A DNA stretch of 64,000 nucleotides, taken from Pirellula sp. Lineage in GTDB: Bacteria > Planctomycetota > Planctomycetia > Pirellulales > PNKZ01. A model generated the notes under the pieces. That model saw only the letters and a list, made by a program, of their open reading frames with translations. It had not been told where the DNA came from and did no database searches. Position numbers and translations under genes: made by a program. The DNA lies in NCBI GenBank assembly GCA_013822735.1, contig PNKZ01000017.1:1-64000 (forward strand), written 5' to 3'. Within the stretch, counting starts at the first letter, position 1. Every line of letters starts with the position of its first letter. This document shows, one piece after another, positions 1-49,920 of this stretch.

Positions 1-7
1 GTTAGCT
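1..7 (+). repeat. Putative attC right-end core (GTTAGCT) of a truncated site
   Basis: The window begins with GTTAGCT, sixteen bases before the likely start of the first gene. The same kind of heptamer (GTTAGGC, GTTAGAC, GTTAGCC, GTTAGTC) closes the inverted-repeat sites at 742, 1532, 8052, 9530 and 10068, each time shortly upstream of a cassette gene. It is therefore read as the R' end of an attC site whose body lies outside the window. Seven bases alone prove nothing; the inference rests on position. Confidence 0.45.
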
Positions 8-22
8 TCGATGGAGGTGGCT

Positions 23-577
23 ATGAAACAGATTGCATTCGCCTTTCTAATGCTCGCCTCTGCACACTGCGATTTCCTTGCGGCCGCAGATACAAGATCG
101 GTCGAGCCGATCCCGTCGAAGTACGAAAAAGCGACTTCACTTGCCCTCTACGTCGAAAGCAATCAGTCACAGAAACTTGAAGAACGCGAAATTCGCATTT
201 TCAAGGTGAGGTTGATTAATCCCACGGATACTGCGATTTCATTTGAAGGGTACGGGGAAGCAGGCCCGTGGTACGACATCCAGACTTGGACTGATGGGCA
301 ATGGAAAGATTACTACGTCGGATGGTTCTGTGGCACCGGCCTGCGCAAATGCGTAATTCGACCGGGCGAGTCGTCTGTGATATTCGTTGACATCGACACA
401 ACAAGAGCTCGTTTTCCCGTTAGGGTCGGTGTTAGGTACACTCTTGAGAACGGCGCGAAGCCCGCGGCGCAAACGGTCTGGTCGGACCGAATAGAGAAGA
501 ACTCTACTTACGTCGATCCGAAACCGCTGCCGCAGCCGCCGACATTCAAAAAACGGTATCCGCCGCCTGCACGGTAG
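23..577 (+). CDS. Secreted hypothetical protein, cassette gene 1
   Basis: Unrecognised protein of 184 residues. The ATG at 23 is preferred over the in-frame ATG at 11 because GGAGGTGG sits just before it and because translation then opens directly with a signal peptide (MKQIAFAFLMLASAHCDFLAAAD, cleavage probably after the Ala run). The mature part is hydrophilic, with several Trp and Tyr residues and a proline-rich tail (KPLPQPPTFKKRYPPP). Two cysteines in GWFCGTGLRKC could form a disulfide in the periplasm. The gene is followed by an attC-like site (618-742) and is oriented as all other cassettes are, so it is read as a mobile cassette gene. Function unknown. Confidence 0.7.
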   Translation: MKQIAFAFLMLASAHCDFLAAADTRSVEPIPSKYEKATSLALYVESNQSQKLEEREIRIFKVRLINPTDTAISFEGYGEAGPWYDIQTWTDGQWKDYYVGWFCGTGLRKCVIRPGESSVIFVDIDTTRARFPVRVGVRYTLENGAKPAAQTVWSDRIEKNSTYVDPKPLPQPPTFKKRYPPPAR

Positions 578-617
578 CCAACAGATCAACTTCCTATTGG
601 CCGCTGGTGAAGTCCGA

Positions 618-742
618 CGCTAACAATACGCTGCAGTCGACCCGCCCGTCGTTCGGAGCTTTGGCGCGCTCGCTTCGGTCGCGTTACAATTCGATTCGAC
701 TCGCCCGTCGTCCGGGCGGGCAACTGAGCACAATCGTTAGGC
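618..742 (+). repeat. attC: attC-like recombination site 1
   Basis: Imperfect inverted repeat of 125 bp. The left end reads CGCTAACAATACGCT followed by GACCCGCCCG; the right end reads CGGGCGGGCAACTGAGC then CAATCGTTAGGC. The reverse complement of the right arm (GCCTAACGATTG, then GCCCGCCCG) aligns with the left arm with a few bulges, as in integron attC sites. The terminal GTTAGGC fits GTTRRRY perfectly. The loop between the arms is long, as in chromosomal-integron sites. It lies between the stop at 577 and the start at 757. Confidence 0.8.
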
Positions 743-756
743 CGCTCAACCACACC

Positions 757-1335
757 ATGCGCCAATTCGACGACATCGTTCAGAAACTGCGGCAGCACTT
801 TGGAGCCGTGACTGTTAACCCGCCAGTGAGTGACGTTGCGCTTCGCGAGTTGCACAAGCGCGTCGCTGGTGTCCCCGACGTGCTGCTTTCATTCTGGCGC
901 TACTGCGATGGCATTCGTGTCACACGTTTTGAGGAAGGTGAATTGTTCGGCATTGAGGAGTCACTTTCGTACTATCCACTTTGCGGCGACGCCCAACGGC
1001 TTGGCAGGTTCGTTCCGTTACGAGGCGACGGTTGCGGAGACTACGATTGCCTGATTATCGGAGACGGACCTTGCGAGAGAGCGATGGTCTTCTGGGACCA
1101 CGACGTTTACGACGGAGCGGCGTATTTGCTCGGAGGCTCGTTACTCAATTATCTCGACATGTGGGCGGACCACATGGTGCACGAGTTTTTGCCAAGCGGC
1201 GAGAGAGCCCCTGAGGATCAGCACCCTTGGCCATTCGACGAGGCATGGATGCGCCGGCGCGACCCGATCGCAGATAGGTTGCTAGGCGACGAGTCCTCAC
1301 GTCGTTGGTTGTTGAGGCAGGATAACTTGACCTAG
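757..1335 (+). CDS. SMI1/KNR4 (SUKH) family protein, cassette gene 2
   Basis: Protein of 192 residues starting at ATG 757, fifteen bases after the attC core GTTAGGC; the open frame upstream of this ATG runs through the attC site and is not expected to be coding. The body has SUKH/SMI1-KNR4 features: an N-terminal helix with VPDVLLSFWRYCDGIRV, then FGIEESLSYYPL, VPLRGDGCGDYDCLIIGD and MVFWDHDVYDGAAYLLGGSLLNYLDMW. Bacterial SUKH proteins are known as immunity proteins against polymorphic or contact-dependent toxins; no toxin is visible next to it, so an orphan-immunity role is only an inference. The family call is by eye, fairly secure. Confidence 0.75.
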   Translation: MRQFDDIVQKLRQHFGAVTVNPPVSDVALRELHKRVAGVPDVLLSFWRYCDGIRVTRFEEGELFGIEESLSYYPLCGDAQRLGRFVPLRGDGCGDYDCLIIGDGPCERAMVFWDHDVYDGAAYLLGGSLLNYLDMWADHMVHEFLPSGERAPEDQHPWPFDEAWMRRRDPIADRLLGDESSRRWLLRQDNLT

Positions 1336-1351
1336 GCGAGAGACACGAGCG

Positions 1352-1358
1352 GCCTAAC
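1352..1358 (+). repeat. Orphan attC left-end heptamer GCCTAAC
   Basis: GCCTAAC fits RYYYAAC exactly and lies 17 bp after the SUKH stop codon, where the left end of an attC is expected. The complementary arm that forms site 2 pairs instead with the TATAACC at 1409, so this heptamer may be the remnant of an older or duplicated site. Weak as a stand-alone feature. Confidence 0.35.
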
Positions 1359-1407
1359 AGTTTTACGGCCTGTGCATTCAAGTAGGGGCACGGGTGGCGA
1401 GGTTCTC

Positions 1408-1532
1408 GTATAACCATTTGCTCCAGTCGGCCCGCCGGTCTTACGGCCGATTTGGCTCATGCGCTTTGAGTGCGTTAGGATAGTTCCCGATCTCGCTCGC
1501 TTCGGGCGGGCAACTGATCAACACCGTTAGAC
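1408..1532 (+). repeat. attC: attC-like recombination site 2
   Basis: Inverted repeat of 125 bp, the same length as site 1. Left arm: TATAACCATTTGCTCCAGTC then GGCCCGCC; right arm: TCGGGCGGGCAACTGATCAA then CACCGTTAGAC. The right stem CGGGCGGGCAACTGA is identical to that of site 1. The final GTTAGAC matches GTTRRRY. The left heptamer GTATAAC deviates from RYYYAAC at one position. Confidence 0.75.
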
Positions 1533-1603
1533 GATTCCGTGCTCCATCCCATGGGTCGAACCATTCGATGCGGTCGTCCCGCCGACTTCCCGTTGGTTTT
1601 GCA

Positions 1604-1863
1604 ATGACACCTTCGCGCCTGCTGCCTTTGATGCTGATCGCCGTCCTGGCGCCGGCGTCTCGCGGCGCCGATTGGGTGACCAAATTAGTCGCGTGCCCGC
1701 GGGCGAAATCGAACTCTGCGCCTTCTTCTCCGACGACTATTCGATCGACTTAGGATCAGGACAAATCAGTGACGCCGACTTGAAGAAGGTGGGTTTGAAG
1801 CTCACCGCAAAATCCGACATCGACTTAGGGACGATCGTGCTGAAGGGTTGGCCGCCGAAGTAG
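1604..1863 (+). pseudogene. Frameshifted small secreted protein, cassette gene 3
   Basis: Two overlapping frames together read as one small exported protein. The frame of ATG 1604 encodes a clear signal peptide (MTPSRLLPLMLIAVLAPASRGADW) and then drifts into a Pro/Ser/Ala-rich nonsense tail ending at 1753. The next frame, from about 1672 to the stop at 1863, carries the convincing mature part (RVPAGEIELCAFFSDDYSIDL, then ISDADLKKVGLKLTAKSDIDLGTIVLKGWPPK). A single-base indel around 1670-1680 would join them. It may be a decayed gene or a sequencing error. It lies 70 bp after attC site 2, and no attC follows it. Confidence 0.5.
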
Positions 1864-2157
1864 AAACACTATGGATCGCGACCAGTCGCGGCCCGTTGTC
1901 GACTCCGGTCACTCACGTTTCCGGCTCGCTTCGGACAATGGCCTGAGAGCGTACTCTTCTCCACCGGCTGGTCGGCGCGATACCAGTGCGTCTCCGCCAT
2001 CTCTTGCTGCGCAGGAGCGAATCCGCGATCTCCGTGGTTCGGTATGAAATGTGCTCGCTTATGTCCGAACTCCGGAGCGGCGGCCTTCCGAGAGTCGTCG
2101 CACGGCGATGCTATCTTGCCGAATTTTGGTCGTTCTCCTGCAAATACCTCGGCATCT
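1864..2157. other. Intergenic stretch without recognised feature
   Basis: About 290 bases between the broken cassette gene and the AI-2E transporter. No TAAC/GTTA-bounded inverted repeat could be found, so the cassette array seems to break off here. An in-frame extension of the transporter frame exists from 2044, but its translation does not look like protein. Confidence 0.4.
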
Positions 2158-3981
2158 ATGGCTAAAGCTCAACCGGTCGGGATTCACGCGTCGCTGCAAT
2201 TCCTCGCGACGTTTGTCTTGGTCGTGACGATCCTTTACGTCGGCCGGCCGGTCTTACTGCCGATCGGGATGGCCGCGCTCGGCGCATTCTTGCTCACGCC
2301 GGCGATTAAGTTTCTCGAACGTCGCCGCTTTCCGCGGTTGCTGGCCGTGGTGACGGTCGCCGCTCTGGCGGTGGGCGTCGTCGTCGGCTTTAGCTCGCTC
2401 GTGGCGACCGAGTTCGGCGGCTTCTCGGCGAAGGTTCCGATCTATCGCGACAATCTCGTGCATCGACTCGACGGCCTGCGCGTCGGCGGCGGGATCATGG
2501 ACGACATCAAGGGGGTCTTGAACGACGTCACACGCTCGATCGAGCACCCCGACGCTCCTGCCCCGGCCGTAGCGAACGACCAAATCGTACGCGTCGTCGA
2601 AACCTCGGACGACACGTTTGGTCGGATCCAATCGATCATGTCGGCCGTGATCGCTCCCCTAGCCGGAACGGGCGTCGTGCTCGTGTTGATGGTTTTCGTA
2701 CTATTGAGCCGCGAAGATCTGCGCAATCGGATCGTTCGTTTGTCGGGCAAGCACTTTGCGCTGACCACGAGAACGCTCGACGATTTAGGGTCGCGGATTA
2801 GCCGCTATCTCGTGGCCGTCGTCATCGTCAACGGCGGCTACGGAGCGGTCGTCGGCCTCGGCCTGTGGATGATCGGCGTCGACTACGCGGTATTGTGGGG
2901 AGCGCTCGCCGGCGTACTCCGATTTATTCCGTACATCGGGCCGGCGGTCGGCATCTCGCTTCCGCTCGGGATGGCCTTCATCCAGTTTCCGGCGACGGAC
3001 TGGACGCATTTCACCGCCACGGCGATCTTCCTCGGCGTGTTGGAAACGCTTACGAACATCGTCGTCGAACCGCTTACCTACGGCTACAGCATCGGCGTTT
3101 CGATGCCTGCTCTCTTGGTCGCCGCGATCTTTTGGTCATGGGTCTGGGGACCGATGGGCCTGCTGCTCTCCGTTCCCATCACGGTGACGCTCGTCGTGCT
3201 CGGCGAATACATTCCGGCGCTGGAACTCCTGGCCGTCGTGCTGGGAGACAAGCCGGCGCTCGACAGCCATGTGATCTATTACCAGCGGTTGTTGGCGGGA
3301 GACGTAGAAGAAGCCGAGGAAATTCTCGATGCGGAAGTGAAATCGGTCGGCGTGCTGGAAGCGTACGACGCCGTCGCGGTTCGCGCCGTAACGATGGCCG
3401 AGCGCGACCTGCATTTAGGAAAGCTGACCACGAGCGAGCATGACGCCGTGGTGGAAGGAACGACCGACTACGTCGAAGAACGCGCGGCGGCGTCGACAAC
3501 TTCTTCCGACGCCGTATTGCGGGCCCGCATCATCGGCTGTCCGGTGCGCGACACGGGCGACGAGATGGCGCTGCGGATCTTGCAGCGACATTTGACGAGC
3601 GCCGGCGACGGCGATCTGCGAATCCTCTCCTCGACGACGCTGGCCTCGGAAATGATCGCGCAGATCGAGGAAGCGCAGCCCGACGCGGTCTGCTTATCGA
3701 GCTTGGGGCCGCTCGGCAGGCGGCAATTGCGGTACCTTTCCAAGCGCGTGCGACAGAAAAACCCGCAACTGCGAATCATCGTCGGAAATTGGGGCGATCG
3801 CGGCAAGGAGGCCGACAAGGTGGCGGCGAGCCTCAAAGATCAATGCGGCGCCAACGTCGTGTTTACGACTCTCGCGGCGGCGCATGAGTATCTGCAAACC
3901 TTAACGCCGCGGCCGCCGGTCGTGCCCGCAGGCGCTATCACCGCGAGCGTTCCTGAAAGCAGCTTGGCCGCTGCTCACTAA
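2158..3981 (+). CDS. AI-2E family transporter with C-terminal B12-fold-like domain
   Basis: Integral inner-membrane protein of 607 residues. Start at ATG 2158 (MAKAQPVGIHASLQFLATF) is chosen because the 38 residues ahead of it look non-coding. Residues about 10-355 form the AI-2E/PerM-type permease with eight or so hydrophobic segments and the conserved stretch RFIPYIGPAVGISLPLGMAF. From about 355 a soluble region follows: a helical cap-like part (YYQRLLAGDVEEAEEILDAEV) and, at 455-580, an alpha/beta domain resembling cobalamin-binding folds (ARIIGCPVRDTGDEMALRIL, then PDAVCLSSLG and LRIIVGNWG). The DxHxxG motif that ligates B12 is absent (GCPVRDTGDE at its place), so B12 binding is doubtful; it may be a sensory relic. 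Substrate unknown. It is the first gene of the segment separating the two cassette blocks. Confidence 0.85.
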   Translation: MAKAQPVGIHASLQFLATFVLVVTILYVGRPVLLPIGMAALGAFLLTPAIKFLERRRFPRLLAVVTVAALAVGVVVGFSSLVATEFGGFSAKVPIYRDNLVHRLDGLRVGGGIMDDIKGVLNDVTRSIEHPDAPAPAVANDQIVRVVETSDDTFGRIQSIMSAVIAPLAGTGVVLVLMVFVLLSREDLRNRIVRLSGKHFALTTRTLDDLGSRISRYLVAVVIVNGGYGAVVGLGLWMIGVDYAVLWGALAGVLRFIPYIGPAVGISLPLGMAFIQFPATDWTHFTATAIFLGVLETLTNIVVEPLTYGYSIGVSMPALLVAAIFWSWVWGPMGLLLSVPITVTLVVLGEYIPALELLAVVLGDKPALDSHVIYYQRLLAGDVEEAEEILDAEVKSVGVLEAYDAVAVRAVTMAERDLHLGKLTTSEHDAVVEGTTDYVEERAAASTTSSDAVLRARIIGCPVRDTGDEMALRILQRHLTSAGDGDLRILSSTTLASEMIAQIEEAQPDAVCLSSLGPLGRRQLRYLSKRVRQKNPQLRIIVGNWGDRGKEADKVAASLKDQCGANVVFTTLAAAHEYLQTLTPRPPVVPAGAITASVPESSLAAAH

Positions 3982-4298
3982 GTGTTGAAGTCGAACGACG
4001 CCGGCGCGGCAATGGAGTATGAGCCAAGAGGCTGCAGCGAATAACGACGCTTCGCTCGCTCTCCTACCCAAGAATGGGGAGCGAGGTAGGAAGTGGCGCC
4101 CCGGCATATTCGGCACGATCGGCATGGCGGGCCGCGACTTGATTGCCGTCCTGTGAGGTTTACTGCTCGGGCGTCGGCGGGCCAAAATCGCCGAACGCTC
4201 CCTTGTTCTGACGTAGGCTTCCTTGTGGTTCGACGACGCCCTTCGTCGAGCCCGTCAGCCCTCGGATTCGGCAGCGCACTCCCTTCCCGCGGCGGAAT
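3982..4298. other. Intergenic stretch without recognised feature
   Basis: 317 bases between the AI-2E gene and the next forward gene. No RNA gene or strong promoter was seen. A short imperfect inverted repeat (CTCCTACCCAAG near 4061 and GGTAGGAAG near 4084) could be a weak terminator after the transporter. Confidence 0.3.
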
Positions 4299-4868
4299 AT
4301 GTCTCACAATTTGGAACTCGCGACCCGTTCGGCGTCGCACGCAGGCGTCGCTCTCCAAGATCCCGTTCAAGACTCCGCCGAAGACTCGGTCGCCGAACTC
4401 GATGCGCGCTTTGACGCGGTCGAAGCGTTGCTCCGGCAATGCGACGACGGAGAGTTCCCGGCGAATGAACCTGCCGCGCCGTCGCCCGCAAAACGCGAAC
4501 CGCGCCGCTCGCGCCGCACGGTGGCGACCGCCGTTCGTCGCGCCATGTGGCGGCTTGCGGCCCATCCGCAGACCGTCGACATGATTCAAGAAGCGATCAC
4601 CGCACGGCCGGTGCCGTGTCACGAAGCTCGCCCGATCGCATTCGGCGACGTGCTACAACTCCTCGCCGCGCAGCCCGGGCTCCGTCCGTTGCTGCTCCGT
4701 CCGCGGCATCCCGTCGGCCGTGCGATCGGCGTCATCGACCAGCGGCTCGGCCGCTTGGTGCTGGTGGTCGAATCGGCGCCCGACGACACGGCCCGATTCC
4801 GCCTGCCGGCCGTTCGCTCGCCGCACGTCGAAGGGCTGCTCCAGGCGGCCTTCGGCCTGGCGTTCTAA
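4299..4868 (+). CDS. Hypothetical protein
   Basis: Protein of 189 residues that I do not recognise. The N-terminal third is acidic (DPVQDSAEDSVAELDARFDAVEALLRQCDDGEF), the centre is basic and arginine-rich, and the C-terminal half (VLQLLAAQPGLRPLLLRPRHP, then VGRAIGVIDQRLGRLVLVVESAP) looks folded with two predicted beta strands. No signal peptide or membrane segment. It converges with the ion-channel gene, with 25 bp between the stop codons. The coding assignment rests on length and amino-acid pattern only. Confidence 0.5.
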   Translation: MSHNLELATRSASHAGVALQDPVQDSAEDSVAELDARFDAVEALLRQCDDGEFPANEPAAPSPAKREPRRSRRTVATAVRRAMWRLAAHPQTVDMIQEAITARPVPCHEARPIAFGDVLQLLAAQPGLRPLLLRPRHPVGRAIGVIDQRLGRLVLVVESAPDDTARFRLPAVRSPHVEGLLQAAFGLAF

Positions 4869-4893
4869 AACGAAACTTCCATCGGCCGCGCGT

Positions 4894-6042
4894 TCAATGA
4901 AAATGCTCGTCGGCGCCGCGCGCCGCAGGCAGGGCGCCCAGGTCGGGCGAGCGCTGCATCCAGGGACTGGTTTGCCAGTTGTCGATCGGCACATCGGCCG
5001 GCAGAAACGGCGGCAGCGTGAACTGCAGATTCTCTCCTAGGGCATACACGAACGGTTCGTACAAGGCGCGCAGCTCCGTCAGCGCCGAGGCGACTTGCGG
5101 CTCATCGCGAATCTCCAGCCCCGCGGCGCGCAGCGATTCGAGCAGCCGCGCCAGTCGCTCCGGCGGCAGACGATCGATCGGCGGACTCAGCGGCGGCAAT
5201 TGTGCGACGAGCCCCAGATCGACGGCCGCATGCCGGGCCATCGCAAACGTCAGGCGTGCCTGATAGTCGTCGGCGTGTTTCGCGTTGGCGATCAACACGG
5301 CCGTGGTGTCTAACATCGTGGTCAGCGCGGCCACCCAAGATTGGTTGTCGTGCTGCGAACGATAAAACCGAAGCACCGGAAACGAGATGTGGCTTTCCAA
5401 CAGCTCCGCCGCCCACCGTTCCCACTCCGACAAGAGCCCGCCGCTGTTCACCGCCCCTCCGCGCATCGCGAGACGCCGCAGAAGTTCGCCGGCCGTGGGA
5501 GGCGACCCGGCGCGGGCATCCAAGAGCGAAATCGTCACCTCGCGCCGCGAGAACGTTTGGTAGATCACCGGCAAGTAACTGAGCACGACGGCCAAGAACG
5601 CAAACCCGATCCCCGCTTCGGCGATGCTCAGCATGCGACCGACGACGCCGACCGGGACGATATCGCCGTAGCCGAGCGTGAAGAACGTCGTGCCGCTGAA
5701 GTAGAAGTAGTCCACCACTCCCCGTTCGTCGATGTCGGGAAAGACGAGCGCAGTGTTCAGCGACCAATGCAGCAGCGCGAAGCCCGCAATGAGGCCGGCG
5801 GCCCAAACCGTGATGAGACCAAACAGTGACATCGGGCCGAAGGTTCCGAGGAACCCGTAGCGGAGCCAACCTTGCGGCAGGAGCAGCGCCGCCTTGCCCC
5901 ACAGCAGCCACGCGTATCGATAGTAAACGCGCGCCAAGCGGTAACCGTGGCGCACGCGCCGCGGCAGGATCACCACTTCGAACGTGTCGATCATGATGCC
6001 GATGATGATCGCGAGCGCGACGACGATTCCGATCCACGACAT
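4894..6042 (-). CDS. Two-helix potassium channel family protein
   Basis: Membrane protein of 382 residues with a pore module of the Ion_trans_2 type. After an N-terminal hydrophobic segment (residues 3-20) and a further one (70-92), the pore loop carries the selectivity filter TLGYGD at residues 122-127, then a second pore-lining helix (GRMLSIAEAGIGFAFLAVVLSYLPVIY). The cytoplasmic C-terminal 230 residues are mostly helical, without a recognisable RCK (TrkA-N) nucleotide motif; the part LESHISFPVLRFYRSQHDNQSW resembles regions seen in bacterial two-TM channels annotated only as potassium channel family. It should mediate K+ flux in the inner membrane; gating unknown. The gene converges with the preceding hypothetical. 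Confidence 0.85.
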   Translation of the reverse strand: MSWIGIVVALAIIIGIMIDTFEVVILPRRVRHGYRLARVYYRYAWLLWGKAALLLPQGWLRYGFLGTFGPMSLFGLITVWAAGLIAGFALLHWSLNTALVFPDIDERGVVDYFYFSGTTFFTLGYGDIVPVGVVGRMLSIAEAGIGFAFLAVVLSYLPVIYQTFSRREVTISLLDARAGSPPTAGELLRRLAMRGGAVNSGGLLSEWERWAAELLESHISFPVLRFYRSQHDNQSWVAALTTMLDTTAVLIANAKHADDYQARLTFAMARHAAVDLGLVAQLPPLSPPIDRLPPERLARLLESLRAAGLEIRDEPQVASALTELRALYEPFVYALGENLQFTLPPFLPADVPIDNWQTSPWMQRSPDLGALPAARGADEHFH

Positions 6043-6155
6043 AGTTAAGGTTTTCCGTACGCGAAGTGAGCGAGCATCGGCGGGCGACTACCCGAGGCCG
6101 TCGTCGGCCGCCGAGCGCCGGTATTGTAAACCAAGCGGTTGCTACGCGCATTTTG

Positions 6156-6640
6156 GTGCGCCGGACCGACATTTTCCTGCGCGCTGTTGCGCACGGGATG
6201 TAAAAATCGCGCAACAAGCCGTTCGACGAAGTGCGCGGCCGGGGCGAGTTTGCGCACTACCCGACGACGAGCGTCCGCCGCAGCGCGCCGTTTCCGGCAA
6301 ATGTTGCCGCCGACCGCGCCCGAAATCGCCGTAAGTCCTCGTCGTGCGCGCCGTGCGCTGCGCACAGCGCCAGGCCCGCAGTGCGCGGCCTTGTTGGTAA
6401 GCGCTCCGACGCGCACTCGGAGGGGTCGGTTGTGCGCATTGCGAGGACTTAGTGCGCAGGACTTACGTCGATTGGGCGGAGCGCGCCTGAGCCCTCGGCG
6501 AGCCGCCTGCAGGGAGCGGAGCCGAACCGCCGGCCGCCGACCGGCCATCTTGCTGCGCAGAGGTTTCAAGCGGCACATCGAAATATCCTCCTCGCATTCT
6601 CCCCTCGCCCCTTGCGGGAGAGGGGCCGGGGGTGAGGGGT
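6156..6640 (+). repeat. Dispersed TGCGCA-rich repeat, copy A
   Basis: Non-coding element of about 485 bp whose reverse-complement relative lies at 49502-49920. Shared landmarks in the same order: CATTTTCCTGCGCG (6170), a GTGCGCG segment, CCTTGTTGGTAAGCGCTCCG (6389), GGGGTCGGTTGTGCGCA (6422), ACTTACGTCGATT (6461), GAGCGGAGCCG (6515) and finally a CTCCCCTCGCC...GCGGGAGAGGGG hairpin (6599). The hexamer TGCGCA or its core GTGCGC recurs at least eight times. Frames crossing it give Arg-rich peptides that are not credible proteins. No transposase is present. Confidence 0.75.
6598..6640. repeat. CCCCTCGCCCC palindromic intergenic repeat
   Basis: Self-complementary stretch: CCCCTCGCCCCTTGCGGGAG followed by AGGGG. 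Closely related copies occur at 40166-40195 and, diverged, at 49500-49533, always outside genes. It may act as a bidirectional hairpin or simply be a repetitive intergenic palindrome. Confidence 0.55.
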
Positions 6641-7096
6641 TCGTGGATCCAAAAAATGGCGCCCACTGCCCCCGGCGACTCGACGGGGGCTAAGACGCGC
6701 AAAATCTCACGCCGCATTATCCCCAACCCCACGATCCAAAATCCAGGCAAGTTTTGGCCGGCCCCAAGAATGCGCGCCGCGAAGTAGCGGTGGCCCAAAA
6801 GTTCCCTTGACGAACGCGCGCAACGACGTTCCCGTCGCATGGCAATATTTCCTGCCGACGTTCTTCGGCCGGCGTTCACGCAAACCAAGAGGCAGAAGCA
6901 CGCCGCCTGCGGCCGCATTGTTCCGCCGATCCTCGGAGTGATATCAAGAAATGATCTATCACGCATCGCGGCGCGTGAAAAATGAGGAAGCATCGACTAG
7001 GATGCGACTTACGGCAAAGCCGGCTCTGCGTGATAGGCCGCAAACTTGCCGTCTACGGGTGATAGACAGAAACTATCCAGCAACATCGCGGCTGCC
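6641..7096. other. Intergenic stretch between repeat A and cassette block 2
   Basis: About 455 bases with no convincing gene on either strand. There is a pair of complementary short words (GATCTATCACGC near 6951 and GCGTGATAGGC near 7029) that could form a long-range hairpin. No attC right end is recognisable before the gene at 7097, so the 5' boundary of the second cassette block is not resolved. Confidence 0.35.
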
Positions 7097-7498
7097 ATGG
7101 GCGATCACTTGACGAAACTCGACGCCGCGATTGACGAAAACCTTACGTCATTGATTACCAACCGCGGCTGGGTACCTTCGGGTTTCTGCGAGAACCCCTC
7201 TGGCTATGCCGTTAGGCGCTACACGGCAGGTGACGTGAGCATCGAGGTAGAGTACGAGCGCGGCTTGATAGATTTCAGTGTCGGGTCAATACGGTCCCGA
7301 GAGTCTTTGCGTAGTGCGTCGTTTATCCGCGACTTATTGGATCCGCCAAGATCCGGTCGCTGGAATCTTGGACTAGGTGCCGCCATTTTTGTCGATGAGC
7401 GATGGGACGACATCGTGAACCTGATGTCACCGGACCATTGGCATGCAACGATCCGCCGCATCGACGACCTGTACCGAGCCTCTAAAGGTGCCGGCTAA
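7097..7498 (+). CDS. Hypothetical protein, cassette gene 4
   Basis: Protein of 133 residues from ATG 7097 (MGDHLTKLDAAIDENLTSLI); an in-frame ATG at 7046 is possible but adds an unlikely leader. Composition is that of a small soluble alpha/beta protein (GYAVRRYTAGDVSIEVEYERGLIDFSVG, then WDDIVNLMSPDHWHATIRRIDDLY). No family recognised. The stop codon TAA is part of the GGCTAAC left end of attC site 3, a hallmark of cassette genes. Confidence 0.7.
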   Translation: MGDHLTKLDAAIDENLTSLITNRGWVPSGFCENPSGYAVRRYTAGDVSIEVEYERGLIDFSVGSIRSRESLRSASFIRDLLDPPRSGRWNLGLGAAIFVDERWDDIVNLMSPDHWHATIRRIDDLYRASKGAG

Positions 7499-7619
7499 CA
7501 ATTCGCTCCAGTTGGCCCGCCCGTCGTCCTGAACTTTGCATCGTGAGCTTCGAGCACGCTAGACTAAAACGGTACCCGTTCAACTTCGGGCGGGCAGCAA
7601 CTGACCAAAACCGTTCGAC
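7493..7619 (+). repeat. attC: attC-like recombination site 3
   Basis: Inverted repeat of 127 bp. It starts GGCTAACAATTCGCTCCAGT, then TGGCCCGCCCG, and ends TTCGGGCGGGCAGCAACTGA, then CCAAAACCGTTCGAC. The stems are near-identical to those of sites 1 and 2 (GCTCCAGT, GCCCGCC, CGGGCGGGC, CAACTGA), so the three belong to one site family despite being 6-7 kb apart. The right heptamer GTTCGAC has one mismatch to GTTRRRY. It overlaps the stop codon of the preceding gene. Confidence 0.8.
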
Positions 7620-7634
7620 CACTTCGGAGCACGC

Positions 7635-7991
7635 ATGGGGAAGCTCACCTGCCCGTGTGGTAACTGGTTCAGCACCACAGGTTGCCCGGACGACTCGATG
7701 CATGTCGTTCGGGACCGCGACATGGACGCCTATGCCCAGCACGTCTGGCAGTCGTACCAGCTCTCCGATGTGGAACGGGGCGGTATGCTGCCCGAACGGG
7801 CAATCCAAGAGTCGGAGCAGTTCCACAACAGCCTTGAGGCAAGCCTCGACATGGAGGGCGAATTGTGGGAGTGCCCGGCATGTTGCCGGTTGCTGTTCCG
7901 GGGGCCTGGGGACCAGCAGTTTCGGTCCTTCTTACCGGAGAAACTCGCGCCGGACGAACCAGCCGCTGCACCTGACCATGGCGGCGAATAG
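7635..7991 (+). CDS. Cys-rich hypothetical protein, cassette gene 5
   Basis: Soluble acidic protein of 118 residues starting 16 bp after attC site 3. It contains two cysteine pairs, CPCGNWF (residues 6-12) and CPACCRLLF near residue 79, spaced as in a split zinc ribbon; a further Cys lies in TTGCPDD. The central helix (LSDVERGGMLPERAIQESEQFHNSLEASLDMEGELW) separates the two knuckles. The C-terminal codons lie inside attC site 4. Function unknown; metal binding is inferred from the cysteine pattern only. Confidence 0.7.
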   Translation: MGKLTCPCGNWFSTTGCPDDSMHVVRDRDMDAYAQHVWQSYQLSDVERGGMLPERAIQESEQFHNSLEASLDMEGELWECPACCRLLFRGPGDQQFRSFLPEKLAPDEPAAAPDHGGE

Positions 7992-8052
7992 AATCGTTTC
8001 GCGAGTTCAATCACTCACTCGCCGCCTCGGCAGGTGATCTTCTTCGTTAGGC
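7953..8052 (+). repeat. attC: attC-like recombination site 4
   Basis: Inverted repeat of 100 bp that begins inside the preceding gene. Left arm: ACGAACCAG, then TGCACCTGACCATGGCGGCGA; right arm: TCGCCGCCTCGGCAGGTGAT, then CTTCTTCGTTAGGC. The reverse complement of the right arm carries ATCACCTGCCGAGGCGGCGA, matching the left arm with few changes. The end GTTAGGC is a perfect GTTRRRY core. The left heptamer keeps only the AAC end. Confidence 0.75.
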
Positions 8053-8056
8053 AGTC

Positions 8057-8479
8057 GTGAGCAAACTTCCCGAAAGGCTTGTCTGCCGGGCAACTCTTTA
8101 CGGTGCTGATGCTGCGGGCATACTGTTGATGGCGACGTTCGAGGTTGTCCGAAAGAACTCGTACAGCTTTCTGTTTGGACCTACTGGCGCAGATGGTACG
8201 GCGTCGCTCGATGGATCGACCATTCCAGCGGAAGCCGAAGCGCAACTGAGCATGGCGATCATGGACTACTCTCCCATCGCCGCCGCTTATACCGGCAAGA
8301 TTACGGTCAAAGCGATGTCGAAAGCGGAGATCCTTAAAGCGATTGATGCATTTAACCTGTTTCAGAAACACACTGCTTATCTTAGCGGCTATCAAGACCT
8401 GCTTAACGCTGGGTTACGTGTGCCGCTCTTGGATAACTCGGCACTCATCAAGGTCGAGATCATCCAGCTCATTGCCTAA
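8057..8479 (+). CDS. Hypothetical protein, cassette gene 6
   Basis: Protein of 140 residues starting with GTG only four bases after the attC core GTTAGGC, so its 5' untranslated leader would be inside the attC site, as is common for cassettes. Sequence MSKLPERLVCRATLYGADAA, then ILLMATFEVVRKNSYSFLFG, suggests a small beta-rich soluble protein with a helical middle (MSKAEILKAIDAFNLFQKHTAYLSGYQDLL). No family recognised. The stop codon TAA is part of a GCCTAAC heptamer. Confidence 0.65.
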   Translation: MSKLPERLVCRATLYGADAAGILLMATFEVVRKNSYSFLFGPTGADGTASLDGSTIPAEAEAQLSMAIMDYSPIAAAYTGKITVKAMSKAEILKAIDAFNLFQKHTAYLSGYQDLLNAGLRVPLLDNSALIKVEIIQLIA

Positions 8480-8480
8480 C
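8474..8480 (+). repeat. Orphan attC left-end heptamer GCCTAAC
   Basis: Perfect RYYYAAC heptamer overlapping the stop codon of the preceding cassette gene. A short imperfect palindrome may follow, but no GTTRRRY partner is found before the next start codon at 8531. The site looks truncated, which would have fused this cassette with the next one. Confidence 0.45.
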
Positions 8481-8530
8481 AACGCGATGCCGCTTCCCAT
8501 TCGTTTCACCATCGACTTTATGAGGTTGAT

Positions 8531-9343
8531 ATGCCGATCGGTTTCCCCAAACTTGCCGAGCGATCTTGGCTCGGAGTTTTCGTCGCGATGGCCTCCGTGT
8601 TCTTCGTCGGCTGCAATCGCACGCCGGGCTACGACGCAAACGACATTGCGGAAAAACTTCGCAAGCTCGGCCATTCGTCCATGATGCCGTTCGACATTCG
8701 CGAGATTAAAATGGTCTCTTCTCGCGAGGTTAGCAAAGATCAGTATGTTTACGACATCGAGCTTAAGGGCGAATTTCGGGGATCGATCTATTTGCTCATC
8801 GACGGCGAGCATTTGGCGAAGGCCGGCATACGTAGCTTATCCGCACCGCCCTTGGAGTTCCTGCAGATGAAGTCGCCGACTCAAGCCTCGGAACTGAAGA
8901 AGAAGCTGGAGGAAGTCGCTCCGGGCGGAAGCTTCTACGTGACGGCTTGCCGGCAAGGCGAACCGTGCGTCATGACCGGACAACTTTTCGTCCAAAATTC
9001 TCACAAGACGATGGAAAAATGGATGGTGACGGAGTTTGTTATGAGTGGGCCTGAAGGCGTTCGTGGTGCCGGGATGAAATACCAGACTCGCACCGGCGAC
9101 TGGCCGACGCGCCCGACCTTTGTTCCGGACAACTACAGCGACTGGCGACAAAGAATGTATTTGAGCATCGACGGTAAAGGTCTCAGCAACAGCCAAACGC
9201 ATGTTCTTTCCGCATTGCCTCCTGGCGCGACGGCGGTCGACATCGATAGCTCGGAGTTTAAAGATCGAATGAGTGCGCTGAGTAAGGTCTGGTCCGAGAT
9301 CGACGATGCGACACGTAAGATTATTCAGACGGCGAAACCTTAA
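8531..9343 (+). CDS. Putative lipoprotein, cassette gene 7
   Basis: Protein of 270 residues with an N-terminal hydrophobic segment ending in a lipobox-like FVGC (Cys at residue 27: SVFFVGCNRTPGYD), so it is probably a lipid-anchored periplasmic or outer-membrane protein. The mature part is helical at both ends (NDIAEKLRKLGHSSMM; DRMSALSKVWSEIDDATRKIIQTAKP), with a beta-rich centre. No known domain recognised. It is longer than the other cassette genes and is preceded by a truncated attC and followed, after about 100 bases, by attC site 5. Confidence 0.7.
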   Translation: MPIGFPKLAERSWLGVFVAMASVFFVGCNRTPGYDANDIAEKLRKLGHSSMMPFDIREIKMVSSREVSKDQYVYDIELKGEFRGSIYLLIDGEHLAKAGIRSLSAPPLEFLQMKSPTQASELKKKLEEVAPGGSFYVTACRQGEPCVMTGQLFVQNSHKTMEKWMVTEFVMSGPEGVRGAGMKYQTRTGDWPTRPTFVPDNYSDWRQRMYLSIDGKGLSNSQTHVLSALPPGATAVDIDSSEFKDRMSALSKVWSEIDDATRKIIQTAKP

Positions 9344-9439
9344 GAACTCAAAGACGTGTGTCTAGCGGAACGACGGCATAAGGTTTTTAAACAGGAATAG
9401 GCCGTTGGTCGTAAAGTTCCCATTTAGCGGGAGATGCAG

Positions 9440-9530
9440 GCCGAACCAGACGCTCCAGCAGCGGCGGGTTATCATTCGCTCCTTTACTTCACGCTCATCG
9501 GCCCGCCGCTGCTGTGCTGGGACGTTAGCC
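9440..9530 (+). repeat. attC: attC-like recombination site 5
   Basis: Inverted repeat of 91 bp. Left arm: GCCGAACCAGACGCTC then CAGCAGCGGCGGG; right arm: CCCGCCGCTGCTGTGCTGGG then ACGTTAGCC. The central 13-base stem (CAGCAGCGGCGGG against CCCGCCGCTGCTG) is perfectly complementary. The right heptamer GTTAGCC has one mismatch to GTTRRRY and equals that at the window start apart from the last base. Confidence 0.8.
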
Positions 9531-9552
9531 ACAAGGTCGCCAGGCATCTGCC

Positions 9553-9960
9553 ATGAATTACACCGTCGATGTCGTGGCGATACTCAAACCGCTGTTCGGC
9601 GCGTACAAAGTGCCGATGAAGCCCGCAACCGAAACGTCGCTCAACCTATTCAAGGCAAGAGCTGCCGAGCGGAAGGTGCCGGGCGATGTCGCAACACAGC
9701 TTGCGAATTTCTACTCGATTGTTGACGGGGTCCCGTGCTTGGACTCGTTGGATATCCATCGTTGCGATGACTTGAGCCTTTTCGCATGGTGGGATCAGCA
9801 AGAGTTGTGGTTGGGTCAAAGAGACTTCTATACACTGAGATGGTCATCGGGGAAGAAGCGGTTTTGCATCGGAGACGCCGGCAACGTCAGCTTCTCAGAA
9901 AGCAATGAATATCCCACCTTCGCCGAGGCGCTACGGCACATGGTGAAATTGTACGATTAG
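9553..9960 (+). CDS. SUKH-like hypothetical protein, cassette gene 8
   Basis: Protein of 135 residues starting 23 bp after attC site 5. The pattern VPGDVATQLANFYSIVDGVPCLDSLDIH, then SLFAWWDQQELWLGQRDFYT and GKKRFCIGDAGNVSFSESNEYPTFAEALRHMV is reminiscent of the SMI1/KNR4 superfamily (helical start, aromatic beta sheet, C-terminal helix). The similarity is weaker than for the gene at 757 and should be treated as a suggestion. Like that gene, it may be an immunity-type cargo. Confidence 0.65.
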   Translation: MNYTVDVVAILKPLFGAYKVPMKPATETSLNLFKARAAERKVPGDVATQLANFYSIVDGVPCLDSLDIHRCDDLSLFAWWDQQELWLGQRDFYTLRWSSGKKRFCIGDAGNVSFSESNEYPTFAEALRHMVKLYD

Positions 9961-9969
9961 TCGAAAGGC

Positions 9970-10068
9970 TCCTAACCAACGGATGAAGCTGACCGAGGCC
10001 GCCATCGCGGTTTCGCGTGGCACAAAGGACTGGCAGGCGGCCCCGGCAACTTATCCTTATCGTTAGTC
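9970..10068 (+). repeat. attC: attC-like recombination site 6
   Basis: Inverted repeat of 99 bp. Left end TCCTAACCAACGGATGAAGC then TGACCGAGGCCGCC; right end GGCGGCCCCGGCAACTTATC then CTTATCGTTAGTC. The reverse complement of the right arm (GACTAACGATAAGG, GATAAGTTGCC, GGGGCCGCC) follows the left arm closely. The left heptamer TCCTAAC differs from RYYYAAC at its first base; GTTAGTC differs from GTTRRRY at one. Confidence 0.8.
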
Positions 10069-10081
10069 GGCGGAATCATCG

Positions 10082-10528
10082 ATGCTCGCTCGAACGGAAG
10101 AACACCGCGCGTTCATGCGGCCGAAGTTTCCGGCGGCGTTCGATTTGTTCTACGCCGTATTCGCGGGCGCCGTCGCCGATGTTGCCGAACGGTTGGCCGC
10201 CGGCGACGACGCGCACGCCCGTTCCGCAGACGGCAGGACTCCCCTCACATTTGCAGTGAGTTCCGTCGGCGATTTACTTAAAGCGGATTTGCTCTTCGAG
10301 GCCGGCGCACGCATCGACGGGTGGGATGATCTCGGAATGCAGCCCATCCATTGGACAACGGGTTCAGTCTTCCACGACGACGTAAGTTGTCTTGCGTGGC
10401 GGGCCCGACCCTCGGTCGTAAAGGGCAACACGGACCTTGCAGCGACACGGAAAGGGCGCTGCAAGCCCGGCCTAACCATTCCATCCGGCCGACGCCGCTT
10501 CGCGCCGCAGCCTCATTCAGACGTTTGA
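10082..10528 (+). CDS. Ankyrin-like protein, probably 3'-truncated, cassette gene 9
   Basis: Open frame of 148 codons starting 14 bp after attC site 6. Residues about 20-100 carry one recognisable ankyrin repeat and a partial second (FAGAVADVAERLAAGDDAHARSADGRTPLTFAV, then LFEAGARIDGWDDLGMQPIHWTT). From about residue 100 the sequence turns into Arg/Ala/Gly-rich text without ankyrin pattern and ends with a TGA inside the right heptamer of attC site 7. The normal C-terminus therefore seems lost, by frameshift or by deletion at the attC junction. Ankyrin proteins mediate protein-protein binding; partner unknown. Confidence 0.6.
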   Translation: MLARTEEHRAFMRPKFPAAFDLFYAVFAGAVADVAERLAAGDDAHARSADGRTPLTFAVSSVGDLLKADLLFEAGARIDGWDDLGMQPIHWTTGSVFHDDVSCLAWRARPSVVKGNTDLAATRKGRCKPGLTIPSGRRRFAPQPHSDV

Positions 10529-10529
10529 C
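10470..10529 (+). repeat. attC: attC-like recombination site 7 (60 bp)
   Basis: Shortest site, 60 bp, similar in layout to classic 59-base elements. It opens with GCCTAACCATTCC (perfect RYYYAAC), has the core GGCCGACGCCGCTTCGCGCC that folds on itself, and ends GCAGCCTCATTCAGACGTTTGAC. The right heptamer GTTTGAC has one mismatch to GTTRRRY. The preceding frame terminates inside it. Confidence 0.7.
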
Positions 10530-10546
10530 CCTAGAGACCGCGCAGG

Positions 10547-10972
10547 ATGCACACGCTCACGGTTGTCCTCGTTCTCCCCGACACGGCGAACCTTTGGGAG
10601 ACCTGCCGCGACTTGGTCAGGCCGCATCAAATCGTCTGGGACGACTTGGACCGACCATCGCGACTCGATTATTGGACCGTCGGCCGGGAGTCGATCGCAG
10701 ACGCGGAGTCGGCGGCTCTCCTGGGCGTTGCCGACGATGAGGACCTGGCCCGAAATGTTTGCTTCGTCTCGCGCTTGCCGCCCGACTTTGTACCCGGCGC
10801 GGTGGTTACGCCGGACGGCCGGTGGTACGATCTCCAGGACCACGGGTGGCGCTTCATCGCGAGAGACGAACCCGACAGCCTCGCCGCCGAGACCCGTTGG
10901 CTCGCGCAAGTGCGGGAGCTTTTTGCGGCGCATCGATCGTGCGTGGCGATCGAGATCGATACGCACTCATGA
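10547..10972 (+). CDS. Hypothetical protein, cassette gene 10 (last visible)
   Basis: Protein of 141 residues, acidic, starting 18 bp after attC site 7. Sequence MHTLTVVLVLPDTANLWETC, then VPGAVVTPDGRWYDLQDHGWRFIARDEP and AETRWLAQVRELFAAHRSCVAIEIDTHS, suggests a compact alpha/beta protein. No family recognised. No attC-like site follows, so this is either the last cassette of the array or a chromosomal gene that happens to adjoin it. Confidence 0.65.
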   Translation: MHTLTVVLVLPDTANLWETCRDLVRPHQIVWDDLDRPSRLDYWTVGRESIADAESAALLGVADDEDLARNVCFVSRLPPDFVPGAVVTPDGRWYDLQDHGWRFIARDEPDSLAAETRWLAQVRELFAAHRSCVAIEIDTHS

Positions 10973-21068: not shown

Positions 21069-21142
21069 CTGTAGGGAACGCCCTCCGTGGCGTTCCGAGC
21101 GTAACGTTTGGCTCGGAACGCCACGGAGGGCGTTCCCTACAG
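21069..21142. terminator. Perfect 32-bp stem hairpin between convergent genes
   Basis: CTGTAGGGAACGCCCTCCGT plus GGCGTTCCGAGC (21069-21100) is exactly complementary to 21111-21142, with loop GTAACGTTTG. It lies between the dnaA stop and the stop of the convergent DUF1570 gene, so it can terminate transcription from both sides. The perfect stem suggests recent insertion or gene conversion of a mobile palindrome. Confidence 0.8.
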
Positions 21143-49032: not shown

Positions 49033-49501
49033 CGCGTCCTCGCGTAGACGATCTCACAAACGACAAATCGGGCCGATTTTTCCAGAATCGACTGGGCCAA
49101 GAAGAGAACTCTTGGATACTCGACAATTACCGGCAAGTCAAAGATGAAACGGTCGGAATCGTACGGGCGCTAGGCAGCGAGCTGGAGCAATCAGAGACCT
49201 CGCCGTGGGATACTCGCGGACCGTCGTCGATGAGAGATGTCGGATGATGCCGCTGTTTGCCGAAGGCGCCTCGACTGCAGGGACCTGATGTCGGAATCAC
49301 CGTAGCGCGGGGCGTGCCTACTGCGCTCGTCAAGCGACGAATTGGGCCGGCCAAATCTGCTCTGGAAAGTGGGCCGGCGGATTTGGGATAATGCGGCGTG
49401 ATTTTCTATCCGCGACCCGTTGCGAGTCATGCGCCATGACGAACGCTGCTCAGTTCGCTCTTTCCGCAAAGGTCCCTAGGCCCGCTCATCCGCCCCGACG
49501 G
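49033..49501. other. Intergenic stretch upstream of the CHAT gene
   Basis: About 470 bases without credible gene. The promoter of the CHAT gene should be here. An inverted pair AGAACTCTTGG / CCAAGAGTTCTC-type occurs around 49095-49112 (AAGAGAACTCTT), a possible short operator-like palindrome. Otherwise nothing recognised. Confidence 0.35.
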
Positions 49502-49920
49502 GGCACCTTCTCCCGCGAGGGGAGAAGGGAGAATCGTGTTACGGCAGAGCGGCTCCGCTCACGACAGGCGGCTCCCCGGGGGTTAAGGCGCGCGCTCGCA
49601 AATCGACGTAAGTGCTGCGCACTAACTCGCGATTCTGCGCACAACCGACCCCTCGCAGTGCGCGTCGGAGCGCTTACCAACAAGGGAGCGCACAACCGGT
49701 TTCACGTAGTGCGCACCGCTCGCTGCGCGCTTCGGGTACTTACGTCGATTTGCGGCGCGGCGATCGGCGCCATTTGCCGCGAGCGGCGCGTTGCGTCCGG
49801 CGCGGCGTTGCGCGAAGTGCGCGTTCGGCCTGCGGTCGCGCACTACGAGAAATATCACGACGGGCGCAGCGCGCAACAAATGCGCAACACCGCGCAGGAA
49901 AATGGGCGTGCGGCGCACAA
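49502..49920 (-). repeat. Dispersed TGCGCA-rich repeat, copy B (inverted)
   Basis: Reverse-complement relative of the element at 6156-6640. Reading the minus strand, the same landmarks follow in order: CATTTTCCTGCGCG, AGTGCGCGACCG, GCTCGCGGCAAAT, CCCTTGTTGGTAAGCGCTCC, GGGGTCGGTTGTGCGCA, CACTTACGTCGATT, GAGCGGAGCCG and a CTCCC hairpin. The ACTTACGTCGATT word occurs twice within this copy (near 49575 and 49741 on the plus strand as AAATCGACGTAAGT-like). It separates the CHAT gene from the VWA gene and encodes no credible protein. Confidence 0.75.

Follow-up and report, generated by a model that had tools for sequence, protein, structure and literature searches.

The attC site of an integron is recombined by the integrase IntI as a folded single strand, and clusters of attC sites lacking integron integrases (CALINs) are mostly regarded as headless integron remains. 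In the sections of the cited papers on which this account draws throughout, CALINs are at least two attC without an adjacent intI and are proposed to be degraded integrons (PMC9024848, IntegronFinder 2.0), and attC no more than 4 kb apart are taken as one cluster (PMC8352920). Here we describe cassette clusters at the start of a window of 64,000 nucleotides, bases 1-64000 of contig C17 (PNKZ01000017.1) in a draft genome of Pirellula sp. (G000; 6.88 Mb, 38 contigs, 99.06% complete). We consider it very probable that two cassette clusters lie here, that the head of cluster 2 is the attI/promoter end left by a same-direction integron after its intI disappeared, and that the cassettes are most likely fixed. 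Like the CALINs of PMC9024848, the G000 clusters have two or more attC and no adjacent intI; they differ in often starting with a repeated attI/promoter-like block, or head, which the consulted sections do not mention. Integrons of Treponema have intI directed towards attI and the cassettes, an order that we find in two other genomes of the order (G036:C17 and G016:C330), and one species has attC without intI (PMC3607928); the present case lies in Planctomycetes, and the heads of G000 are many and none has an intI. Xanthomonas shows the same repeated loss of intI and CALINs away from the intI locus, but there intI occupies one locus (ilvD) and no attI heads on CALINs are described in the parts consulted; according to the same paper, CALINs are open to mobilisation in trans, and cassettes become scattered in E. 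coli through attG insertion (PMC12444791). In delta-attI cassettes, too, attI-derived sequence travels with cassettes and recombines, but in those the cassette ends in a piece of attI instead of an attC, whereas here whole blocks head arrays (PMC12901181). Planctomycete attC, a class already described through the Planctomycetes model of Ghaly et al. (PMC8352920), are known, as are CALINs, same-direction intI, intI loss, attG insertion and mobilisation in trans. What looks new is that CALINs carry attI/promoter heads in repeated copies: no report of this was found in the literature searched, which left most subscription papers outside.

The attC sites were searched for with two covariance models, R1 built from six window sites picked by eye and R2 from 88 sites outside the window (alignment A3), at a site threshold of E <= 0.01. 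The first-pass annotation, made from the sequence alone, had read seven attC-type sites of common orientation and named at least five same-strand covariance hits as the check. R2 yielded six, all on the + strand (38-89 bits, E 2.2e-7 to 3e-20; Table 1), among seven matches up to E 10 with zero on the - strand; the seventh, at 10470, reached 17.9 bits and was missed by R1, and is marginal. With R1, likewise, the six alone score high (remaining matches <=17.4 bits), and a weak match at 1555-1690 (12.2 bits) has no R2 counterpart. By eye, the six sites have R'' and R' boxes, L''/L' arms and a variable loop, and all carry an extra (extrahelical) base on the L'' side, seen as an unpaired L'' column in alignments A1 and A3; their outer boxes align well. 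Among the 88 non-window sites 89.1% of cells are paired, against 20-36% when partners are slid by 1-3 columns, and the covariation score is 0.312 versus 0.116 (standard deviation (sd) 0.008) after shuffling; because this alignment was fitted to the structure of the model, the pair counts lean towards that structure. Rfam at gathering scores matched nothing in the array. A home-made attC scorer was dropped as too permissive (14 window hits on the + and 8 on the - strand); its + strand hits included three of the six sites (618, 9440 and 9970).

Since R1 was seeded on the window sites, the test was run in reverse, on foreign IntI loci. Eighty loci with relatives of a congener's IntI were fetched and 79 searched, the congener's own locus being excluded. 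Up to E 1, R1 gave 85 matches, 83 of them on the strand opposite intI; at E < 0.01, all 67 lay upstream of intI on the opposite strand, spread over 30 of the 79 loci. The DNA scanned comprised 310 kb upstream and 588 kb downstream of intI, with more than 1 kb upstream in 50 loci, and the taxa labelled on matching loci include Planctomycetes, Verrucomicrobia, Betaproteobacteria and Thermoanaerobaculales. These are the places where the attC of ordinary integrons lie in the usual divergent layout (PMC3607928), and the six window sites are therefore integron attC.

The annotation had also treated positions 1-10972 as a single array, which did not survive. The region falls into cluster 1 (1-1532, cut by the contig start) and cluster 2 (6940 to ~10530), with a transporter, an unassigned gene and an ion channel between them and a largest attC-to-attC gap of 5.96 kb. 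Its identification of integron cassettes without a neighbouring integrase was borne out: the clusters at 618-1408 and 7493-9970 each hold two or more attC spaced by 4 kb at most, have no neighbouring intI and are CALINs, the left neighbourhood of cluster 1 lying beyond the contig edge. Open reading frames (ORFs) were said to start shortly after the right heptamer, which is true of those at 757, 7635, 8057, 9553 and 10082 (4-22 bases) but not after 1532. The stop codon at 8477 does fall in an R''-like heptamer, as claimed, but this has no right half and belongs to no attC.

What stands in front of the cassettes? In many clusters the first cassette is directly preceded by a non-coding block from one of two families, here called type A and type B. 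Type A separates a divergent intI from its array: in the congener G004 it is found upstream of a full-length intI, and in G000 upstream of the IntI stubs on contigs C6 and C5. Its 13 copies are spread over G000, G004 and G005. Two of these end at a contig start and were excluded from the test for a following attC; 10 of the 11 testable copies have one within 0.9 kb, G004:C358 being the exception. A second, truncated type A head was seen inside the array on C5 of G000 (L062:8229-8280), right after a palindromic repeat that cuts an attC. Type B, of ~155 bp, heads cluster 2 of the window and has eight copies in G000 and one each in G004 and G005. Seven of the ten measure 155-156 bp, where lengths and right-border identities rest on right ends set by eye. 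The left border is sharp: mean pairwise identity is 0.27-0.39 outside it but 0.74 over the ten bases that follow on the inner side, two copies having begun two bases further left than the others in this comparison. The border reads GTTATC in seven copies and GATATC in three, and the C17 and C2:220 kb copies share ~40 extra bases to its left; rightward, the copies diverge after the core. An attC (E <= 0.01) follows on the same strand within 0.9 kb in nine of ten, and in the tenth (C1:571 kb) a palindromic repeat stands right after the apparent left half of an attC (by eye). Left of the block, IntI similarity was found in none of the ten genus copies, the window block included.

The commonest cores of the two head types, TAATAACAAGTTAGGC in type A and TAATAACATAGTTCGGC in type B, resemble the published minimum attI1 core, AAACAAAGTTRRRY (PMC12901181 section 5). 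To judge by its core and by how abruptly it ends on the right, type B would be cleaved by IntI at G^TT; the core of the window head has lost its GTT (alignment A4). The promoter-like hexamers of the window head, GTGAAA and TAGGAT, recur at the same place and spacing in nine of ten genus copies. In 17 type B blocks outside the genus the best such pair sits at model position 36 with a 17-base spacer in 13, and 10 score >=9 of 12, compared with 6% of shuffles; the genus hexamers are weaker than these. A stricter promoter scan reported none in the window block.

Type B blocks extend beyond the genus. R3, a sequence model of the block, was run over 57 genomes of the order, with G004 outside this set; as 53 candidates per genome were scored with R3 and 150 with R1 and R2, head and site numbers are lower bounds. 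At E <= 0.01 it matched 17 of the 57 genomes and 14 of 44 genera, G000 and congeners counted, the weakest matches being possibly due to chance. The 33 matches comprise nine in G000 (the eight full copies plus, at C25, a weak match of 29.7 bits to part of the block), one in G005 and 23 elsewhere, of which the 17 strongest were examined, leaving aside six with E 5.8e-5 to 0.006. An attC lies within 1.2 kb after 10 of the 17, and an intI or its 3' remnant directly before four. In G016 this is a same-strand intI of 334.6 bits (residues 11-291); G047, G036 and G034 retain just a 3' remnant. The block sits between intI or remnant and an attC in G016 and G047, and between remnant and a weak attC (E 0.0036) in G034; on G036:C16 the distance from the block to the next attC is 1.36 kb. 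In G047 and G036 the left border roughly coincides with the former end of intI, at its stop codon (by eye). On another contig of G036, C17, there is a full-length intI (446.4 bits) of the same-direction type, and attC follow its 3' end. Because intI or its remnant precedes some copies in other genera, type B probably represents the end of same-direction integrons that carries attI and promoter.

The integrase itself was sought with the model TIGR02249 (cut-off 265 bits). No G000 match exceeds the cut-off; the best scores 82.4 bits, and the genes behind these scores are taken to be Xer-like. A tyrosine recombinase on C9 (425 aa) was rejected as IntI, being without part of an insertion common to six aligned IntI, and so was a gene on C10 that scored below the cut-off. 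What was recognised are N-terminal stubs: about the first 39 residues on C6, followed by a short palindromic repeat; residues 2-22 on C5, at 81% identity; and residues 1-37 with an internal stop on C2, at 70% identity to the IntI of a different planctomycete (L123). The C2 stub (L056:11306-11416, ~2 kb from an attC) is perhaps the trace of another integron type. The congener G004, a genome listed as 8% contaminated, has a full-length IntI (372.5 bits; 132-1091 of its contig C4). A 1.5-kb stretch ~7 kb from the C6 stub matches, at 73%, one located on the same side of the G004 intI at a distance of ~10 kb, a hint that stub and intI occupy the same chromosomal place. Most likely, the integrase has been lost in G000. 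Gene capture at present, through an integrase upstream or elsewhere, had been proposed for this genome and is not borne out. The alternative to mobility, a gene order conserved among relatives, was not seen: window ORFs of at least 100 aa upstream of 12317 have no tblastn match (E <= 1e-12) in the DNA that precedes the orthologous esterase gene, 6.3 kb of it in G004 and 14.4 kb in G006. ORFs downstream of 12317 are matched in G004 and unmatched in G006; the G005 contig ends at that point.

Each cassette is a short + strand gene followed by its attC. Based on these observations, we propose that the head of cluster 2 would be what remains of an intI, attI, cassettes order from which intI has disappeared. 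An ancestral IntI acting at attI and attC would have loaded the cassettes at G^TT, and it perhaps served many heads in trans. The present cassettes would be fixed, and at most expressed from the promoter of the head. With no intact IntI found and the GTT of the window head mutated, it is most likely that the cassettes no longer move. Past recombination, the role of the block as attI, its promoter activity and present immobility are all what we infer. A number of results weigh against this proposal. R2 derives from R1, whose seeds were picked by eye, and only the position test at IntI loci escapes that circularity. Outside the genus, 13 of the 17 type B blocks show no similarity to IntI over 1.3 kb of upstream DNA, and 7 are not followed by an attC (E <= 0.01) over a distance of 1.2 kb; the sole near full-length intI before a block, that of G016, ends without IntI match, which we read by eye as a frameshift, and R3 does not match the attI region of the full-length same-direction intI of G036. 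Promoter scores of individual heads are ordinary, with means of 8.1 of 12 for type B in the genus versus 6.9 (sd 1.8) shuffled, and 7.5 for type A versus 6.5 (sd 2.0). The sole search for an empty site (C2:216 kb) met no synteny. Finally, since contigs of this draft end in attC or cassettes, an intI could be missing from it.

That last point leads to the opposite view, in which the integron still works and the arrays are live, the integrase being encoded on a replicon that was not binned or in a gap of the assembly. The contig ends at an attC or cassette in C17, C35, C26, C6 and C1 would fit this, as would the presence in G004 of a full-length IntI with an upstream region that shares 82% identity with the one at C6. 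We nevertheless hold it to be improbable, given that completeness is 99%, that only N-terminal IntI fragments were recognised, and that the single-contig genomes G012 and G029 also have type B blocks and no IntI over the cut-off. The notion that the sites are chance hairpins or another palindromic repeat family can draw on the other short palindromic repeats that exist in the genome; it stays alive for 10470 and is refuted for the six sites by covariation, strand bias, position beside foreign intI and ORF spacing, and overall we give it next to no credence.

A different question is how the heads came to be so many. Either they were multiplied by IntI insertion at G^TT, or they are selected remains of full integrons. 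Type B heads could have multiplied as units of their own if recombination between a G^TT beside the intI stop and an attC released head-plus-cassette circles that inserted elsewhere as new landing pads. The common left border in unrelated contexts, the near-constant length and the lack of IntI similarity to the left in all ten genus copies speak for such a process, and cassettes are reported to enter many non-attC, non-attI sites of E. coli by attG insertion (PMC12444791, sections consulted). But the border is also the former intI stop codon (by eye) and so may just mark where selection starts, no empty site was recovered, and the C17/C2:220 kb pair shares ~40 further bases on the left; we regard this multiplication as possible, if on the unlikely side. 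A wider version, a decentralised integron whose many attI-plus-promoter pads were spread by IntI at G^TT, served in trans and kept as expressed islands after its loss, we consider unlikely. For the attI/promoter end of a same-direction integron, the reading that we prefer for the window head, a search model would have practical value: it could help to separate decayed integrons from cassettes at random sites, and would make the idea that one integrase served many arrays testable. To our knowledge, the promoter-attI option of IntegronFinder covers only known attI classes; the option is named in PMC12444791.

Across G000, at least 43 attC-like sites (E <= 0.01), the weakest of which may be chance, fall into 19 clusters on 10 contigs when grouped by a 4-kb rule; 13 clusters hold two sites or more. 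At the same threshold, and again as lower bounds, relatives have 12 (G004), 8 (G005), 10 (G006), 3 (G001), 6 (G002) and 0 (G003). Contigs end inside an attC or a cassette at the starts of C17 (window position 1), C26 and C6 and at the ends of C35 and C1, and cassette arrays thus seem to break this assembly. At a guess, C35, which ends inside an attC and has its own head, continues cluster 1 to the left.

Table 1. Features of the cassette region in the window (window positions)
Feature	Position	Strand	Remarks
Cassette with ORF 11-577	1-577	+	contig starts GTTAGC, read as right end of a cut-off attC
attC site 1	618-742	+	R2 89.4 bits, E 3e-20
Cassette ORF, weak SMI1/KNR4 (SUKH-type) similarity	757-1335	+	PF09346 E 0.0063, below cut-off
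attC site 2, final site of cluster 1	1408-1532	+	R2 80.2 bits
attC-free stretch between clusters	1533-6899	.	no R2 match; genes and intergenic DNA
AI-2E-family transporter	2044-3981	+	in attC-free stretch
Gene without assigned family	4299-4868	+	in attC-free stretch
Ion channel	4894-6042	-	in attC-free stretch
Type B head (attI/promoter-like block) of cluster 2	6940-7096	+	10 genus copies, sharp left border
Promoter-like hexamers	6975-7003	+	GTGAAA (6975-6980), 17-base spacer, TAGGAT (6998-7003)
Degenerate attI core of window head	7082-7096	+	AACATCGCGGCTGCC; commonest form in other copies AACATAGTTCGGC
Cassette ORF, no known family	7097-7498	+	92% copy at end of contig C1
attC site 3	7493-7619	+	R2 76.4 bits
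Cassette ORF, no known family	7635-7991	+	
attC site 4	7953-8052	+	R2 69.6 bits; overlaps 3' part of ORF 7635-7991
Cassette ORF, no known family	8057-8479	+	
Lone R''-like heptamer GCCTAAC, not an attC	8474-8480	+	without right half; no R1/R2 match
270-aa ORF within cassette cluster, no known family	8531-9343	+	
attC site 5	9440-9530	+	R2 38.0 bits, E 2.2e-7
Cassette ORF, no known family	9553-9960	+	
attC site 6, last certain one	9970-10068	+	R2 55.2 bits
ORF with ankyrin-type similarity, perhaps last cassette	10082-10528	+	Ank_4 24.2 bits, cut-off 22.7
Doubtful, possibly decayed attC	10470-10577	+	R2 17.9 bits, E 0.023; other ends, low posterior
ORF, no known family, next to cluster 2 end	10547-10972	+	

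Among ten array and neighbouring proteins searched against Pfam, only that of 10082-10528 (ankyrin) is above the cut-off, and nine array proteins matched none of the PADLOC defence families at E <= 0.01. The ORF at 11-577 has a homologue ~100 bp from an attC on a congener contig (G004:C182; 81% DNA identity over 9-492). One cassette gene occurs twice in G000, window 7156-7510 and L060 9079-9433 at the end of C1 being 92% alike over 355 bp; as the similarity ends inside the attC, the two gene copies carry different attC.

Repeats of several kinds were seen in and around the arrays. A short palindromic repeat, whose arms read AAAAGGGGACATTCT, lies next to the truncated intI at C6 and next to several attC that are truncated or reduced to one half. 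It occupies 10 places in 7 of 25 G000 stretches: on C6 (L055:8744-8772), C5 (L062:8176-8203 and 9273-9300), C1:571 kb (L105:5286) and C2:628 kb (L106:6114-6176), and also in L057, L058 and L067. It is absent from the window and from nine other attC-bearing stretches, and the two copies in L067 lie more than 3 kb from a weak attC, so that no preference of this repeat for attC is established. A dispersed repeat of up to ~450 bp, with copies ~77% alike, lies at window 6324-6763 and 49342-49789 and at L061 4969-5453. Further along the window, at 21073-21138, there is a near-perfect palindrome with arms of ~30 bases, a related copy of which occurs in G004:C389.

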